Part shown: positions 57,425 through 64,000 of the stretch, piece by piece
Position numbering within the stretch: position 1 is the stretch's first letter
Layout: each line of letters starts with the position of its first letter
From: Haloarcula sp. CBA1129
Lineage (GTDB): Archaea > Halobacteriota > Halobacteria > Halobacteriales > Haloarculaceae
DNA length: 64,000 nucleotides
Reading direction: 5' to 3'
Assembly (NCBI RefSeq): GCF_008729015.1
Contig: NZ_RKSM01000001.1
Location: 2,852,001 to 2,916,000, forward strand
Notes under the pieces: model-generated
What the model was told of the DNA's origin: nothing
The model's input: only the letters and a program-made list of their open reading frames with translations
Databases searched by the model: none
Translations under genes and position numbers: made by a program

Positions 57425-58768
57425 CTATCTGGCGTGGCCCGGGTCGGACGGCCGCGGCTCGTAGGTCTCCGATGTCGAACCCAATCTGGCGACGAGCCAC
57501 AGGACAGGGAGCAGCAACACGCTGCCGACAACGAACGGCGACCAGTAGCCGACGGCGAAGTACAGCCCGCCCATGACCGGCGGGCCGACGGTCCGGGCCA
57601 GACTACCAGCGCCCTGCGTGATACCGAAGGCGCTCCCCTGGACGGCCGCGCTGGCCCGCTGGGAGACGAGCGCCGTCAGCGTCACCGAGAGGACGCCGTT
57701 ACCGAGCGGCAGCAGCGTCAACACGAGCAGGAGGCCGAGCAGGTCAGCGGTGAGAGACGGAACAAGTGCGGTCAGGTCGGGAAGAATCGAGCCGATGGCC
57801 CGAGAAATCGGGATTGCGCCGACGCCGACAACGAGTAGCCCGGTCCCGAACAGCGAGAGCCGGACCGGGCTGTAGCGCGCCGAGAGCCGGCCGACGAGGA
57901 CTCCTTGCGTGATGACCGCAACGACGCCGATGTAGGTCAACAGGAGTGCGCTCTGGGCGGCCGTGTAGCCGTAGATGTCGGCGACGTAGGGAACGAACAT
58001 CACCTGCACGCCAGAGAAAGCAAACGAGACGAGGAAGAAGGCCGCGAGCAGTGGCCGGAGGCCGGGCGTCGCCACCGCCGCCCGGAGCTGGGTAATCGAG
58101 GAGGTGCGTTCAGTCGCTGACGCAGTTTCCGAGACGGTTCTGGACTCGGGGAGGAACAGTACGGCGACAAGCACACCGCACAGGCTCGCGGCCGCGGCGG
58201 CAAAGCTCGGGAGCGAGAACCGGGTAATCGGCACAGCCGCCGGCAAGAGCCCATCGACAACGGCAACCGTCGCGTCGAAGCTCAACACCGCGCCGATGCC
58301 GGGGCCGAAGATGAACCCCAGACCGAACGCGGCTCCAATGAACCCGAGGGCAGCGGCCCGTCGTTCGGGCGGCGTCACGTCGGCGACGTAGGCCTGAGCC
58401 GTCGAAAGGTTGCCGCCCATGGCACCGGCCAGCAGCCGGGACAGAAAGAGGAGCCACAGCGCGTCGGCCAGCCCGAACACCGTCCACGCGAGGACGGAGC
58501 CACACAGCGACACCACGAGCACCGGGCGGCGGCCGACGCGGTCCGACAGCGACCCGAGCAGCGGCGCGAAGACAAACTGCATCGCGGAGTAGGAAGCCGC
58601 GAGCAGTCCGATGACGAACTCCGTCCCGCCGGGGAACGACCGGGTGTAGAACGGGAGAATGGGGATGATGATACCGAAGCCCAGCAGGTCCAGAAAGACG
58701 ACGAAGAAGACGACCGCGAGGCCACGACGGCGGCGGGACCCGGTGATACCGGTCCCGGTGTCTGTCAT
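57425..58768 (-). CDS. Major facilitator superfamily transporter (TetA-like)
   Basis: A 447-residue MFS transporter with 12 helices. Helix 1 and motif A (GSLSDRVGRRPVLVVSL) match drug/H+ antiporters, as does motif C-like GFIGAAFGLGFIFGPGIG. A cytosolic loop at about 210-235 separates the halves. Related to the TetA/multidrug exporter group; substrate unknown. The ATG at 58768 is chosen because upstream frame lacks membrane character. It is divergent from the radical SAM gene with 135 bp between starts. Confidence 0.87.
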   Translation of the reverse strand: MTDTGTGITGSRRRRGLAVVFFVVFLDLLGFGIIIPILPFYTRSFPGGTEFVIGLLAASYSAMQFVFAPLLGSLSDRVGRRPVLVVSLCGSVLAWTVFGLADALWLLFLSRLLAGAMGGNLSTAQAYVADVTPPERRAAALGFIGAAFGLGFIFGPGIGAVLSFDATVAVVDGLLPAAVPITRFSLPSFAAAAASLCGVLVAVLFLPESRTVSETASATERTSSITQLRAAVATPGLRPLLAAFFLVSFAFSGVQVMFVPYVADIYGYTAAQSALLLTYIGVVAVITQGVLVGRLSARYSPVRLSLFGTGLLVVGVGAIPISRAIGSILPDLTALVPSLTADLLGLLLVLTLLPLGNGVLSVTLTALVSQRASAAVQGSAFGITQGAGSLARTVGPPVMGGLYFAVGYWSPFVVGSVLLLPVLWLVARLGSTSETYEPRPSDPGHAR

Positions 58769-58903
58769 ACCAGCCCCTGCGTCGGGAAGCCGGATAAGAG
58801 CGCGGGACGCGTGACTCCCCAGCGCACCCCTGTCCATGCCGTCACGTCCCACGCCGGACCTGATGCGCACGCTTTTTCCCGCTGGGAGCGGTGGCTAGAG
58901 ACA

Positions 58904-59935
58904 ATGATTTCCGAGGGCTGCGAACAGTGCGCCAAAGGCGGCAAGATGGTGCTGTTCGTCTACGGCTACTGCGACCAGCGAGACTGCTTCTACTGTCCCC
59001 TCGGGGAGAACCGCAAGAACGTCACCCAGATGTACGCCAACGAGCGTCCGATCGAGGACGACGCAGACGTCATCGAGGAGGCCAAGCGCATGAGCGCGCT
59101 GGGTACCTCAATCACGGGCGGCGAACCTCAGGAAGTACTCGACCGGACCTGCCACTACCTAGAACTGCTGAAAGACGAGTTCGGCGAGGACCACCACACG
59201 CACCTCTACACTGGGATTCCCGGCGGTCGCGAGAACATGCGCCGCCTCTCGGAAGCCGGTCTCGATGAGATCCGCTTCCACCCGCCCTTGGAGCAGTGGG
59301 GCGATCTCCACGGGACCGAGTGGGAGGACATCCTCTACATCGCCCGCGAGGAGGGGCTGACCCCCGCCTTCGAGATTCCCGGCATCCGCGCCGAAGAAGA
59401 GTTCCTCGAATTCTTAGACGAGGGCGCGGCCGACTTCTGTAACATCAACGAGTTCGAGATGTCCGACGGGAACTACCGCCGGATGCAGGAGGAGGGCTTC
59501 GAACTGAAAGAGGACCACATGAGCGCTGTCGAGGGGTCCCACGACATCCTTGAGACGATGGGGGACCACGAGAAGGTGTATTTCTGTACGAGCGTGTTCA
59601 AGGACGCCGCCCAGCATCGCTCGCGACTCAAGCGGATGGCCCGCAACATCCGCCGGGAGTTCGACGATGTGACCGACGACGGGACCCTCGTCTACGGGAA
59701 GGCGTGGACCTCCGAGGCCCGACTTGAAGCCCTCGGCGTTCCCGAGGAGTACTACACGGTCAAGTCCGACCACGTCGAATTGGCCTGGTGGCTGCTCGAA
59801 GAGATGGTCGAGGAGGGCGATGTGGAAAAGGGCGAAATCGTCGAGCAGTATCCGACCTACGACGGGACAGTCGTCGAGCGGACGCCGCTGTCGGCTTCGA
59901 ATTCACAATCGGAGCAGTCAGCGGTGGGGGACTGA
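58904..59935 (+). CDS. Radical SAM family protein with CX4CX2C cluster
   Basis: A 343-residue radical SAM enzyme, soluble. The Fe-S motif is C-x4-C-x2-C (GYCDQRDCFYCPLG, about residues 22-35), not the usual CX3CX2C. A separate CEQC pair lies at 6-9. The GTSITGGEPQEVLD segment follows and matches the SAM-contacting GGEP motif. The rest is TIM-barrel-like (EIRFHPPLEQWGD, AADFCNINEFEMSD). Reaction unknown. The ATG at 58904 is preferred. The C-terminal 48 coding bases are duplicated downstream. Confidence 0.85.
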   Translation: MISEGCEQCAKGGKMVLFVYGYCDQRDCFYCPLGENRKNVTQMYANERPIEDDADVIEEAKRMSALGTSITGGEPQEVLDRTCHYLELLKDEFGEDHHTHLYTGIPGGRENMRRLSEAGLDEIRFHPPLEQWGDLHGTEWEDILYIAREEGLTPAFEIPGIRAEEEFLEFLDEGAADFCNINEFEMSDGNYRRMQEEGFELKEDHMSAVEGSHDILETMGDHEKVYFCTSVFKDAAQHRSRLKRMARNIRREFDDVTDDGTLVYGKAWTSEARLEALGVPEEYYTVKSDHVELAWWLLEEMVEEGDVEKGEIVEQYPTYDGTVVERTPLSASNSQSEQSAVGD

Positions 59936-60061
59936 TCTGTCCCGGACGCGAACGAGCGAAGCGAGTGAGACGTTCGGTTTTTTAGCGTAGATTTTTCGAG
60001 GAGTGGTTCCCGCAGTGAGCGGAGCGAACGAGGAAACCCGACGATGAAAAAGGTACTCGTG
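59893..60061. repeat. Tail-flanked cassette E1 with terminator-like T/A tracts
   Basis: Sequence between the two copies of the radical SAM gene tail. After the gene stop it holds a GCGAACG...GAGTGAG motif, T6 (59978-59983), eight bases, T5 (59992-59996), CGAGGAG, an imperfect stem (GGTTCC...GGAAACC), CCCGACG and A5 (60047-60051, GATGAAAAAGGT). The same order occurs in E2 at 62.5 kb in the other orientation. It reads as a repeat family acting as a bidirectional transcription terminator (inference). Confidence 0.65.
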
Positions 60062-60149
60062 GCAGTATCCGACCTACGACGGGACGGTCGTCGAGCGGAC
60101 GCCGCTGTCTAACGGTGCTGACGCCGGACGAGCGACGGCCGACGACTAA
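60062..60149 (+). pseudogene. Duplicated radical SAM gene tail (remnant)
   Basis: The first 48 bases (60062-60109) repeat 59845-59892 with a single mismatch and read in the same frame (QYPTYDGTVVERTPLS); the frame continues with NGADAGRATADD to TAA at 60147-60149. It has no start. It probably keeps the original C-terminus of the gene, displaced when cassette E1 entered. Confidence 0.7.
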
Positions 60150-60246
60150 TCCAGTTCGGTTTTCGTCCCGGTTTCTGCGACTCACAGGCCTGTACTGTCC
60201 AGCCGTGGCTTTATTTATCAGCTAAGAGAAATGCCGGTGACCCTCC

Positions 60247-61086
60247 ATGCGCTTTGCTATCGACAGCGGCAAACTACTGTACGCGCTCGGTGTCCTGTTC
60301 GCCGCGGCGGCGCTCCTGTATTTCGTCCGTGACGTCGTGTTCAATCTCTCGATAACGGTGAAAGCGGTGTTACTGTTGCTGGGCTTTATCCTGTTGTTCG
60401 TGGCGGGTGTCACCCTCGAACGCGACGTGCTTGACGTTGTAGCCTTTGCTCTCAGTGGCGTGACCTACGTCGTGTTCGTCGGGTACGTTGTCGTCCGGTA
60501 TTCGCCGGGCGAAACGGGGACGTTCCTGTTGCTCGCCGCGTCCGCAGGGCTGTTCGTCGGGCTGGGCTATGCGCTCCGGACAGGGATTCCGACGCCATCG
60601 CGGCGAACAGCAGTGGTCGCCCTCGGCGGCCTCCTCATCGTGAGCGGCGGACTCGTGGGGGCCGACGCGCTCAGCGGCGGGGTGACCTACGACGTACAGA
60701 CGAGCGAATCAGTCACCGTGTCGGTCCCGGCGGCGGAACAGACCCCGGACAGGTACCCGTACATCGAGGCGGAAATCGGGACCGTTGCCGCGTCGAACCC
60801 GTCACCGTTCCTGCGGGCGCTGGCTCTCCCCTCGATTTCGGGCTGTCTGATCGGGCCGACGGAGCATCCACAGGAAAGAGTGTACGTAGACACCGATATC
60901 CAGTGGGACGAGGACACCATCGGCGCTTCGACGACAAAGTCCTACGCAGTCACCGCTGAGTTACCGATTGCTCCGAACCGGACGGAGCCAAAAACGTACG
61001 CCATTGAACAGGGGATTGACTGCGGTGCCGAGCGGGCCGAGCCGACAATAGCGATTCAGGTCGGCGAAACCGACACGTTAGACTGA
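60247..61086 (+). CDS. Haloarchaeal membrane protein with extracellular domain
   Basis: A 279-residue protein. About five membrane helices occupy the first 150 residues (LYALGVLFAAAALLYFV, VLLLLGFILLFVAGVTL, and others). A beta-rich, probably extracellular C-terminal domain (150-279) contains Cys residues (SGCLIGPTEH, GIDCGAE). Family not recognised. The ATG at 60247 is preceded by a TTTATTTATC box near 60209-60218. It directly abuts the convergent zinc-ribbon gene. Confidence 0.75.
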   Translation: MRFAIDSGKLLYALGVLFAAAALLYFVRDVVFNLSITVKAVLLLLGFILLFVAGVTLERDVLDVVAFALSGVTYVVFVGYVVVRYSPGETGTFLLLAASAGLFVGLGYALRTGIPTPSRRTAVVALGGLLIVSGGLVGADALSGGVTYDVQTSESVTVSVPAAEQTPDRYPYIEAEIGTVAASNPSPFLRALALPSISGCLIGPTEHPQERVYVDTDIQWDEDTIGASTTKSYAVTAELPIAPNRTEPKTYAIEQGIDCGAERAEPTIAIQVGETDTLD

Positions 61087-61407
61087 CTACTCCAGTTCCG
61101 TGAAACACTCCTGACAGTAGGTGGCGTCTTGCATGTTTGGCGTGCCACAGGAGCCACAGATCACGACCGACATATTTGTCTCTGACAGCGGTGCCGCCGC
61201 ATCGTTGGTGAGTGCGTCGGCCGACCAGTTGGGCCCAGTCGACGACCGATCATTCATCTCGGCGCGCTGCTGGGCCTGCCGGATGAGTTCGTCGTCGCGC
61301 ATCGCTTCGAGGCCCCGCCACAGTCCCAGAAACAGCAGCGTCGGTGCGACGATGACGAACAGGCCAGCGATGACGCGCAACGCCAGTTCCAGCTGGCCGA
61401 GTGGCAT
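61087..61407 (-). CDS. Small membrane protein with C-terminal zinc ribbon
   Basis: A 106-residue protein. One hydrophobic helix at about 9-30 (LRVIAGLFVIVAPTLLFLGL) is followed by a charged linker and two Cys pairs (CGSCGTPNMQDATYCQECFT), a zinc ribbon facing the cytosol. The ATG at 61407 starts MPLGQLELAL. The family is common in haloarchaea and unnamed. Possibly a membrane-anchored adaptor; function unknown. Confidence 0.75.
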   Translation of the reverse strand: MPLGQLELALRVIAGLFVIVAPTLLFLGLWRGLEAMRDDELIRQAQQRAEMNDRSSTGPNWSADALTNDAAAPLSETNMSVVICGSCGTPNMQDATYCQECFTELE

Positions 61408-61514
61408 ACTGTCACAAGAGGCTGGAACGTCGAGTATCCTTCGCCGCATCCGTCGGCTCGCACACCATCAGGCCGCGCCGACGCCTTCTTGCATCACCTC
61501 GCTGAAGACAGCCT

Positions 61515-62030
61515 ATGAATGGCCCTGTCGTGGCAGTCGGTGGCGGACTCGCCGTGATCTTGCTCCTCGGCGTGAGCGCGTTCTTTTCCAGTTCGGAGAT
61601 AGCAGTGTTCTCGCTACAGAAAGACTGGATAGCACAACAGGCGGCAACGGGCGACCGGCGGGCACAGGTGCTGGAAGAGCTGTACGACAATCCACACCGC
61701 CTGCTGGTGACGCTGCTTGTCGGCAACAACATCGTCAACATCGCGATTTCGAGCATCATCACCGTCCTCGTCGCGAACTATCTCTCCCCGGGACCGGCGG
61801 TCGTTGCAACCACTGTCGTCACCAGCTTCCTCATCCTGATTTTCGGCGAGATCGTGCCGAAGGCGTTCGGCCTCGGCAACGCACAGGAATGGGCACTGAC
61901 CGTCGCATCGCCGGTCCGGCTCGTCGAGCGCGTGCTCTCGCCGCTTATCACGTTGTTCGACGGTATCACCAGTCGGATGAACGCGCTCATCACCGTCGAG
62001 ACAGACATCGAGAAACCGTATCTGGACTGA
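61515..62030 (+). CDS. CNNM (DUF21) domain protein without CBS domains
   Basis: A 171-residue integral membrane protein. It has the DUF21/CNNM core (FFSSSEIAVFSLQKDWIAQQ, ITVLVANYLSPGPAVVATTV, FGEIVPKAFGLGNAQEW), with three to four helices, associated with Mg2+ or Co2+ efflux. Larger relatives add CBS pairs and a CorC domain; here the sequence stops after the membrane domain, with no sign of downstream continuation. It may be a short form or need a partner. The ATG at 61515 is clear. Confidence 0.85.
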   Translation: MNGPVVAVGGGLAVILLLGVSAFFSSSEIAVFSLQKDWIAQQAATGDRRAQVLEELYDNPHRLLVTLLVGNNIVNIAISSIITVLVANYLSPGPAVVATTVVTSFLILIFGEIVPKAFGLGNAQEWALTVASPVRLVERVLSPLITLFDGITSRMNALITVETDIEKPYLD

Positions 62031-62033
62031 CTG

Positions 62034-62408
62034 TCAGTACTGGTACAGCGACACGACAAATGGGAGCTTGTTGTACATCCAAATCGCCAGCGGGAGGCCA
62101 ACGATTGTCAGCGTCAGCGCGTACGCGACGCCGGTCCAGACGCCGCTGGCCCACCAGCCGACGAAGACGAACCAGACCACACGGACGAGCAGCGAGTACT
62201 GCGAGCCGCCGTCGCTCTCCGTGACAAGCCGGTCGCGTCGTTTGAGCGTCAGCACGAGTGGCACCCTGTTTATCAGCTTGATACCCAGCGGGATGCCGAT
62301 GATTGTGACGTTCAGCAGCCACGCGACCGAGAGCCAGATGCCGGTCACCCACCAGCCGACGAACAGAAACCACACCGCCCGAACGAGGAGAGACCGCTGT
62401 GCACTCAT
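62034..62408 (-). CDS. YccF domain protein (two repeats)
   Basis: A 124-residue membrane protein with two YccF repeats of about 50 residues (VRAVWFLFVGWWVTGIWLSV and VRVVWFVFVGWWASGVWTGV), each with hydrophobic helices and a conserved GIPLGIKLINRVP-type turn. YccF proteins are small membrane proteins of unknown function. The ATG at 62408 is chosen; the long upstream frame runs through the E2 cassette and is not coding. Confidence 0.85.
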   Translation of the reverse strand: MSAQRSLLVRAVWFLFVGWWVTGIWLSVAWLLNVTIIGIPLGIKLINRVPLVLTLKRRDRLVTESDGGSQYSLLVRVVWFVFVGWWASGVWTGVAYALTLTIVGLPLAIWMYNKLPFVVSLYQY

Positions 62409-62490
62409 ACCCGAATCTACCTCGCCCGGCATCATAAGCTTCCTGTCCAGTGTGTGAGGACAGAAATCGAGCCGGTCTAGAGGTCCGGCG

Positions 62491-62541
62491 TTACGCTTCA
62501 AACCCGTCTTCGAAGACGAACGTCCCGTTCCGCTGGACGAC
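62491..62541 (-). pseudogene. Duplicated aminopeptidase gene tail (remnant)
   Basis: 62501-62541 equals 62651-62691 exactly over 41 bases. On the minus strand it reads in frame VVQRNGTFVFEDGFEA then TAA at 62493-62491, compared with the gene end VVQRNGTFVFEDGFED. It has no start. It is the displaced original tail of the M29 gene. Confidence 0.7.
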
Positions 62542-62650
62542 CTGCACCGACCTTTTTCGGCGTCGGGTCGCCGTTGGCGACCGCTCCTCGAAAAACGTCG
62601 ATGAAAAAGCCGACCACTCACTCCGTTCGCGGTCGGGTACTCAGTCCTCG
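62542..62650. repeat. Tail-flanked cassette E2 with terminator-like T/A tracts
   Basis: Between the two M29 tail copies. On the minus strand after the stop: GCGAACG...GAGTGAG, T5 (62608-62604), eight bases, T5 (62595-62591), CGAGGAG, a perfect stem GGTCGCC-AAC-GGCGACC, CCGACG and A5 (62557-62553). The motif order equals E1 at 60 kb. The related sequences differ in the stem but keep pairing. Confidence 0.65.
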
Positions 62651-63732
62651 AACCCGTCTTCGAAGACGAACGTCCCGTTCCGCTGGACGACTTCCCCGTC
62701 AACCTCGATGAACGAGTCCTCGCTCATGTCGACAATCATGTCGACGTGGACGGCCGACTCGTTTTGCTCGTTGTCCTCGCCAACAGTCTCGTCGTAGGCT
62801 CGTCCTACCGCCATGTGAACGGTGTCGCCCATCTTTTCATCGAACAGCATGTTGTAAGAGAACTGGTCGATATCGCGGTTCATTCCGATGCCCAGTTCGC
62901 CGAGTCGGCTCGCACCGTCATCAGTCGACAGCACCTCGGTCAGCAGGTCTTCGTTCTTGGCGGCGCTGTGCTCGACGACTTCGCCGTCCTCGAACCGAAG
63001 GAAGACATCGGTCACTTCCCGGCCCTGATGGTACAGCGGCTTGTCGAACAGTACCTCGCCCTCGACGCTGTCGGAGACTGGCGCAGTGAACACCTCGCCG
63101 CCGGGAAGGTTCTTCTCACCGTAGTCGTTGAGCGTCTCGTTACCGGCAACAGACATCGTCACGTCCGTCGTCTCCCCGGAAACGATGCGGACTTCGTCGG
63201 CAGGGTCCAGAATCTCGACCATCTGTGCCTGGTGCTCGCGGACGGCGTCCCAGTCCTTGAGGACGGCATCCCAGACGAAGTTCTCGTAGCCCTCCGTCGA
63301 AGTCTGGGCGAGCTGGGCGTTGGCAGGCGCGGGGTATTGTGTGAGACACCAAGTCTTCGAGAGCCGCTCGTTCAGGAGCGGCTGCTGGGACTGCTGATAG
63401 GCGGCCGTTGTTTCGGGGTCAACGTCACTGGTCTCGGTGACGTTGTCACTGCCCTTGATCGCGATGTACGCGTCCATCTCCTCGTACAGCGCTTCAATAT
63501 GGCTCGGCGTCTCGAACTCGTCCCGATTGCGAAGGTAGGCACGACGGAACCGCTCGCCGAGGCGGTCCTGTACGACAAGCGGATTTGCGCCGCGGTCAGC
63601 GGCAAACTCGTGTAGCGCGGTCACAAGATCCGCAGCCTGCGGGTGAGCGTCGATAACGAGGTTGTCGCCCTCGCTCAGGTCGATAGAGTGGTCGACAATG
63701 ACTTCCGCATGTTCGCGAATGCGTGGGTCCAT
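62641..63732 (-). CDS. M29-type aminopeptidase
   Basis: A 363-residue thermophilic-metalloprotease (M29) family aminopeptidase. The N-terminal domain (IREHAEVIVDHSIDLSEGDN) and the metal-binding C-terminal region, with motifs such as LPGGEVFTAPV, GIGMNRDIDQFSYNMLFDEK and SAVHVDMIVDMSEDSFIEVD, match the family. Removes N-terminal residues from peptides in the cytoplasm. The ATG at 63732 begins MDPRIREHAEVI. Its 3' end is followed by the E2 cassette and a duplicate of its tail. Confidence 0.9.
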   Translation of the reverse strand: MDPRIREHAEVIVDHSIDLSEGDNLVIDAHPQAADLVTALHEFAADRGANPLVVQDRLGERFRRAYLRNRDEFETPSHIEALYEEMDAYIAIKGSDNVTETSDVDPETTAAYQQSQQPLLNERLSKTWCLTQYPAPANAQLAQTSTEGYENFVWDAVLKDWDAVREHQAQMVEILDPADEVRIVSGETTDVTMSVAGNETLNDYGEKNLPGGEVFTAPVSDSVEGEVLFDKPLYHQGREVTDVFLRFEDGEVVEHSAAKNEDLLTEVLSTDDGASRLGELGIGMNRDIDQFSYNMLFDEKMGDTVHMAVGRAYDETVGEDNEQNESAVHVDMIVDMSEDSFIEVDGEVVQRNGTFVFEDGFED

Positions 63733-63775
63733 ACAGATAGGCACCACCGACGGCCCCTAACCGTTACCCTCCCGG

Positions 63776-63901
63776 CTACTTCTTCTTGCTCTGCTGGAGC
63801 CCTTCCTTGAATCCCTGAAAGGTCCGCCGGAGCATCAGATACATGAAGAAGAAAAACAGGAGGACGGCAGCGAGGAGTGCGTACGTGAGCAAGTCAGCCA
63901 T
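63776..63901 (-). CDS. Very small single-helix membrane protein
   Basis: A 41-residue frame, MADLLTYALLAAVLLFFFFM, then YLMLRRTFQGFKEGLQQ and a Lys-rich end. One membrane helix with a basic cytosolic tail. The ATG at 63901 is followed by haloarchaeal-style codons and the frame fits a typical small membrane protein. It lies 44 bp before the M29 gene on the same strand. The last 99 bp of the window show only the expected upstream promoter DNA. Confidence 0.6.
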   Translation of the reverse strand: MADLLTYALLAAVLLFFFFMYLMLRRTFQGFKEGLQQSKKK

Positions 63902-64000
63902 ACCGGCGGTTGTCGAGCCGACATCAAAGTCCTTTCGGGAGACCCGGCTTCGGGCGTCTACCGGGCGATATTGAAGGGTAAAATGCGGGTTTGACCGATA

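Follow-up and report, generated by a model that had tools for sequence, protein, structure and literature searches.

Exchange of gene ends with retention of the old end has been described for the rhs genes of enterobacteria, in which a laterally acquired C-terminal end joins a conserved gene while the old end persists behind it, attached to a piece of the core whose length varies; homologous recombination, possibly via circles, was proposed, and arrays of displaced ends form (Jackson et al. 2009, PMC2935791). Haloarchaea are described as mating and recombining between species (PMC4500145, PMC10085750), and a T5C tract is reported to have ended 95% of transcripts in an in vivo reporter assay in Haloferax volcanii (PMC7237163). 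Here we describe hairpin elements (hereafter E) behind haloarchaeal stop codons and the gene-tail duplications that accompany them, beginning with a 64,000-nucleotide (nt) stretch of Haloarcula sp. CBA1129 (contig NZ_RKSM01000001.1, positions 2,852,001 to 2,916,000; hereafter the window). Two genes of the window end in the same type of spacer, a hairpin-rich segment after which the final stretch of the gene appears again. The probable explanation, in our view, is that gene 3' ends were displaced by homologous recombination with a terminator hairpin at the boundary, which would account for the tail duplications.

Duplicated gene tails in the window and across Halobacteria

The two loci are built from the following parts, where T is the tail copy within the open reading frame (ORF), T' the downstream copy and UTR an untranslated region:

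58904..59935, + strand: host gene 1, a radical SAM protein of 343 aa from the ATG at 58904 (Pfam PF04055), with an apparently imported C-terminal end, ASNSQSEQSAVGD
59845..59892, + strand: T1, the gene-1 tail copy within the ORF
59893..59976, + strand: apparently imported tail end, stop codon, 3' UTR and hairpin GGACGCGAACGAGCGAAGCGAGTGAGACGTTCGG, missing at the empty sites L039, L040 and L042-L046
59977..60057, + strand: core element E1, with T6, AGCGTAGA, T5C, GAGGAG, a stem, CCGACG, GAAAAAG and the foot GTAC (covariance-model match, E=3.2e-12)
60062..60109, + strand: T1', putative displaced native tail copy, with homology beginning 9 nt past GAAAAAG
60110..60149, + strand: putative displaced native tail end (NGADAGRATADD, stop), the same in E-less Haloarcula genomes
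62641..63747, - strand: host gene 2, an M29-family metallopeptidase (Pfam PF02073), with an end, GFED then stop, that appears imported by orthologue comparison
62651..62691, - strand: T2, the gene-2 tail copy within the ORF
62611..62640, - strand: gene-2 3' UTR with hairpin GACCGCGAACGGAGTGAGTGGTC
62547..62610, - strand: core element E2, with T5, CATCGACG, T5C, GAGGAG, the stem GGTCGCC/GGCGACC, CCGACG, GAAAAAG and the foot GTCG (covariance-model match, E=2.6e-16)
62501..62541, - strand: T2', putative displaced native tail copy
62491..62500, - strand: putative displaced native tail end (GFEA, TAA), the same in the E-less genome L077

The repeat at locus 1 (59845-59892 and 60062-60109, + strand) spans 48 base pairs (bp) with 47 identical, and that at locus 2 (62651-62691 and 62501-62541, - strand) 41 bp exactly or 44 bp with one mismatch; these are the only short-range direct repeats of at least 40 bp in the window, and the only ones scoring above 22.

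The two ends at each locus resemble different lineages. At gene 1, seven relatives from the genus (L039, L040, L042-L046) have a clean empty site with an intact single tail, and the window's own T1' continues as they do, with NGADAGRATADD, the stop codon and the shared intergenic sequence. The ASNSQSEQSAVGD-type end of the gene itself aligns over its full length in another genus, g4 (G329, G282, G138, G087, G071), and in g11, whereas most of the other Haloarcula species align only up to residues 51-58 of 62. Genus g4 is most likely Halomicrobium, because G138 shares its element sequence with Halomicrobium katesii locus L407. Both G071 and G282 carry at gene 1 an element with the same spacer, AGCGTAGA, the junction of GGTACTCGCG with GCA is identical in G071 and G001 and one base off in G000, and 43 nt of the locus 1 insert are foreign coding sequence. 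At gene 2, the upstream end GFED and its UTR are as in type-B genomes (L079), and the downstream end GFEA and its intergenic sequence as in the E-less L077. Judged by inspection of these two loci, both window arrays look like two-lineage mosaics, the upstream end seemingly imported and the downstream copy native. Across the family, gene 1 has at least six different E-T' junctions, which must therefore have formed repeatedly, and tandem arrays are evidence of recombination among the T copies as well.

If T' had been an inert copy from its origin on, it would mutate evenly and T mostly at third codon positions, and at most about half of the T/T' mismatches would fall at third positions. The counts at positions 1/2/3 are 13/16/81 in the genus (81 of 110 third), 2/3/35 in two genomes of other genera (35 of 40 third) and 6/3/22 in an independent set of named loci, an excess over this decay model with P=4e-7, P=7e-7 and P=0.015, respectively. 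At the level of codons, the genus pairs differ by 74 synonymous, 28 nonsynonymous and 2 stop changes, with 26% synonymous expected if changes were random, and the other-genus pairs by 36 synonymous codons against 3 that are not. This third-position excess argues that both copies diverged largely while coding, apparently as two functional coding alleles.

Elements were counted with a strict pattern, TTTTTCGAGGAG-N5-35-CGACG-N1-5-GAAAAAG. It matches three times in the genome of the window, at loci 1 and 2 (the only matches in the window) and at a third site 10 kb away (C1:2923949) that has no tail duplication. The pattern is present in 27 of 32 Haloarcula genomes (86 copies) and in 109 of 391 Halobacteria genomes, spanning 44 of 86 genera, among them Haloarcula, Halorubrum, Haloferax, Natrinema, Natronococcus and Halorussus at named loci; a reversed control pattern has no match in the 391 genomes, and no strict match was found in IMG/VR viral contigs. 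The covariance-model scan that the earlier note had proposed, run with a model built from 42 copies and followed by a check of the hits for flanking tail repeats, returned a large haloarchaeal family, with 16 elements in the genome of the window and 35, 30, 31, 26, 17 and 5 in six others. Neither the elements nor haloarchaeal tail duplication turned up in the open-access literature searched, by which measure the elements appear to form a large terminator family not described before. At one locus of Natrarchaeobius chitinivorans (L372), five strict copies stand in tandem at 124-bp spacing with repeats in between.

The association with duplicated gene tails, also drawn in the earlier note, proved strong, non-random and spread over many genera. 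With a direct repeat scoring at least 15 counted as flanking, 54 of the 86 strict copies in the genus carry one, against 1 of 133 control placements at the same loci and 10 of 255 mismatched pairs; the other 32 of 86 lack a tail duplication. For named loci from Halobacteria, a set that overlaps in part with that of the genus, the figures are 35 of 79 against 2 of 131 controls, and two genomes of other genera give 9 of 25 and 9 of 22 model matches, a few of them not gene tails. Among 14 short-range repeats in 864 kilobases (kb) of the genome of the window, all five gene-tail duplications hold a family element between the copies (a crude motif test flagged three, and the covariance-model loci L162/L163 and L171 are the other two); the remaining nine, by our own classing, are seven repeats inside ORFs and two 3' ends of transfer RNA (tRNA) genes. 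Several genes have been hit in more than one genus.

The duplications have one fixed and one free end. The homology of T' begins 0-20 nt past GAAAAAG (median 7.5), which places the right junction at the foot of the hairpin; T, by contrast, begins anywhere from about 13 to 130 nt before the stop codon, and repeat lengths run from about 20 to 140 bp, so that the 40-50 bp previously noted for the two window loci is not general. In about half of the first units, similarity ends within 6 nt of the stop codon. No conserved left end was detected: positions behind the stop codon carry about 0.2 bit each, those at the right foot up to 2 bit. Neighbour orientation has no effect on duplication (26 of 39 codirectional, 26 of 45 convergent).

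Further repeats were seen along the way. The 3' ends of tRNA-Ser and tRNA-Gln are repeated 115-123 bp downstream in G000 at C1:2125496-2125528 (+123) and C1:2971113-2971179 (+115) (L229, about 5496; L260, about 15113), with one full tRNA found per place, and are possible integration-site remnants. In the window, a gene for a YccF-domain protein (62034-62414, - strand) contains a weak internal repeat with 198-bp spacing (62087-62189 and 62285-62387), the same two stretches that Pfam finds in that protein.

Element anatomy and predicted termination function

Read in the direction of the gene, both window spacers have the same order: GCGAACG, GAGTGAG, a T5-6 tract, eight bases (AGCGTAGA or CATCGACG), T5, CGAGGAG, a variable stem, CCGACG and GAAAAAGGT. 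This order, including the gap of exactly eight bases between the T-tracts, had been described in the earlier note and is confirmed in both spacers. Over the whole family the layout from the stop codon is optional hairpins, CTTTTTC-N7, TTTTTC, GAGGAG, a stem of variable sequence and length, CGACGNN, GAAAAAG and a four-base foot. The eight bases between the T-tracts are not arbitrary, as four of them are complementary to the foot that follows GAAAAAG (GTGG, GTCG, GTAC or GTTC) and form an outer stem with it. At the two informative positions of this stem, 97% of copies are paired, compared with 52% and 70% in shuffles.

That pairing is kept while stem sequences differ, as the earlier note had stated for two copies, is borne out by compensatory changes. 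Over 17 pairs, 96.6% of cells are paired and 80 cells are changed on both sides, against 29.6 in shuffles. The case for structure rests on this covariation because single-sequence folding is not significant for copy 1 (z 0.40; copy 2, z -2.64). Intermediates with G-U pairs are few, and the palindrome could thus matter at the DNA level. Within the stem, a GAG...CGA core (alignment A1, columns 25-27 and 54-56) is mostly kept though neighbouring bases vary, as in L162, L166 and L171; it could form tandem G-A pairs or be a protein site. An Rfam scan of 58500-64000 gave no match up to E=1.

Most copies carry two TTTTTC motifs on the sense strand and one on the other; in the genus set the second T-tract lies mostly 34-97 nt past the stop codon, so that C-ended T-tracts of the archaeal T5C type are found 3' of stop codons on both strands. 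As to the two-way terminator proposed in the earlier note, the T-tracts on both strands are there, and these features make it likely that E elements are bidirectional intrinsic terminators and that transcripts end at them in this organism. Where the next gene is convergent and no tail is duplicated, the neighbour's stop codon lies at most 3 nt from the foot in 14 of 19 such copies.

Origin of the tail duplications

We favour the following route for gene-end displacement. A cassette comprising a tail end, its 3' UTR and E from a diverged relative would enter by homologous recombination in the conserved gene tail, through a linear double crossover or a circular single crossover. The recipient's tail would be pushed downstream instead of being deleted, leaving gene, T, UTR, E, T', old stop codon and old intergenic sequence in that order. 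Once an E-T' junction exists, T' would serve as the right-hand homology arm, and the unit could therefore be re-used in recipients that lack E, amplified in tandem or homogenised. For the first joining of foot to tail, our preferred guess is that DNA broke at the hairpin foot and was joined illegitimately, with homology anchoring one side only; a break or template switch there, with the homology anchor on the gene side, would fit a fixed right junction and a free left one. A stronger version, which we hold only tentatively and consider doubtful, is an active haloarchaeal process that cuts DNA, or switches templates, precisely at the hairpin foot and joins the foot to gene tails, making portable 3'-end cassettes of tail end, UTR, two-way terminator and homology arm that move between genera at ordinary genes; if true, it would be a terminator-coupled, recombination-borne system for swapping gene ends.

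Several observations weigh against displacement by homologous recombination. Recurrent new junctions are not made by plain homologous recombination, and the near-identity of T and T' at locus 1 (47 of 48) obliges us to add homogenisation or the single-crossover route. At several loci the duplication extends past the stop codon into the UTR or the element, which tandem duplication explains equally well. A donor lineage was identified for two loci only, not every T-T' pair is biased to third positions, and the loci are partly related by descent, so that the counts are not fully independent.

Tandem duplication in cis, in which slippage or breakage at the hairpin foot re-copies tail, UTR and E, the distal copy deteriorates and the coding parts are kept similar by gene conversion, would also place a fixed junction at the foot. 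It draws on true tail-E-tail-E-tail arrays in G031, G011, G016, G005, G291 and G199, on the five units of Natrarchaeobius L372, and on T' copies that run into hairpin or T-tract sequence (L132, L141, L163, L179). A duplicated element would be expected after T', however, where there is usually none, and the model predicts neither a downstream end like that of an E-less relative beside an upstream end like that of another lineage, nor an at least 5-fold enrichment of mismatches at third codon positions; we regard it as unlikely. The clean, single-tailed empty sites found at gene 1, for their part, would suit a small non-autonomous mobile element inserting behind stop codons with a long and variable target-site duplication, as would an identical 150-200 bp unit dispersed over unrelated loci in G071, G183 and G282. 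Such an element is improbable given the lack of a conserved left end, the coding-like T/T' divergence and the foreign coding sequence (43 nt) in the locus 1 insert; duplications of 20-140 bp are far from haloarchaeal target duplications, most commonly 5, 8 and 10 bp (PMC3119063), and the dispersed copies have no tail duplication. The same missing left end, coding-like divergence and two-lineage mosaics speak against the earlier note's picture of an element that lands in gene tails and itself duplicates coding sequence, and a long target-site duplication, at first favoured for the clean empty sites, was given up once codon positions had been compared and the left end proved missing and the tail end foreign. 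A terminator motif that merely evolved convergently, with the tail repeats as coincidental leftovers, could accommodate the roughly 37% of strict copies without tail duplication, many of them directly between convergent genes; it is refuted by the controls (54 of 86 against 1 of 133) and by the finding that 5 of 5 gene-tail duplications in 864 kb sit at such elements, and has next to no probability left. A diversity-generating retroelement (template/variable repeat) was set aside because the T/T' differences are not A-directed; integron attC sites, IS200/605 guides and group II introns were weighed as resemblances only.

Near-identical copies at unrelated sites are seen in G071, G183 and G282, but not for tail-duplicating copies. 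In G071, a dispersed repeat of about 170 bp (GCGATACACGGATCACCAGCATCCGCG...GAAAAAGGTCGATGCGC) is present three times at unrelated loci (L173-L175), and its right end, GTCGATGCGC, recurs in two further element copies (L294, L295); this is likely a transposase-less mobile repeat carrying the terminator. Dispersed near-identical copies in G183 (L176-L178) and G282 (L180-L181) have the right end GGCTGTACTGA or a one- or two-base variant, and the reverse complement of GGCTGTACTGA, TCAGTACAGC, lies left of the G071 copy L173, hinting at terminal inverted repeats. As these genomes show, small mobile repeats carry some of the hairpins as well.

Relation to described systems

Gene-end displacement as favoured here, seemingly a widespread means by which distant haloarchaeal relatives trade gene ends, would record at sequence level how the ends of ordinary genes pass between haloarchaeal genera, the two alleles being preserved next to each other, and would make the long-standing question of haloarchaeal recombination over large distances testable locus by locus. 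Such exchange alters C-terminal residues of real proteins, and the probable two-way terminator family could be used for annotation and genetic tools.

As terminators, the elements share with the Haloferax T5C class a T5C tract past the stop codon, and hairpins lie upstream of some Haloferax ends; the two-strand palindrome, covarying outer stem, GAG...CGA core and tail duplications are not mentioned in the part of that report available to us (PMC7237163). Among mobile sequences, the haloarchaeal MITE, PATE and SMR families are likewise short, are palindromic or have inverted repeats, and contain no internal gene. PATEs and SMRs make no target duplication, by which identity with them was ruled out, MITEs make that of their transposase, and none is described as tied to gene tails (PMC3119063). 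Two fixed ends with terminal inverted repeats and a short target-site duplication of fixed length, as in MITEs or DNA transposons, are both absent from the tail-duplicating loci.

Homology-facilitated illegitimate recombination and the displacement of immunity genes bear comparison as well (PMC5361080, PMC3240628). There, too, one side is anchored by homology and the displaced part is shunted downstream, and the one-side-anchored displacement proposed for immunity genes of the type VI secretion system (PMC5361080) resembles the present case, although the elements belong to none of those gene families. The non-homologous joint is fixed here at a specific hairpin foot and is not random as in those reports, which do not show homology-facilitated displacement for haloarchaea.

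The rhs system offers a parallel in outcome. An old end with its core fragment is preserved downstream at loci 1 and 2, and the new end matches another lineage in both (g4 and g11 at locus 1, type-B genomes at locus 2). The hosts, Radical_SAM and Peptidase_M29, are not rhs genes. Polymorphic C-termini make up the rhs ends; here, genes of ordinary kinds (radical SAM, M29 peptidase and others) are altered in nothing but their last residues and 3' UTR, and each boundary is marked by a terminator hairpin. Tail displacement at ordinary genes looks like a new form of an already known recombination outcome.

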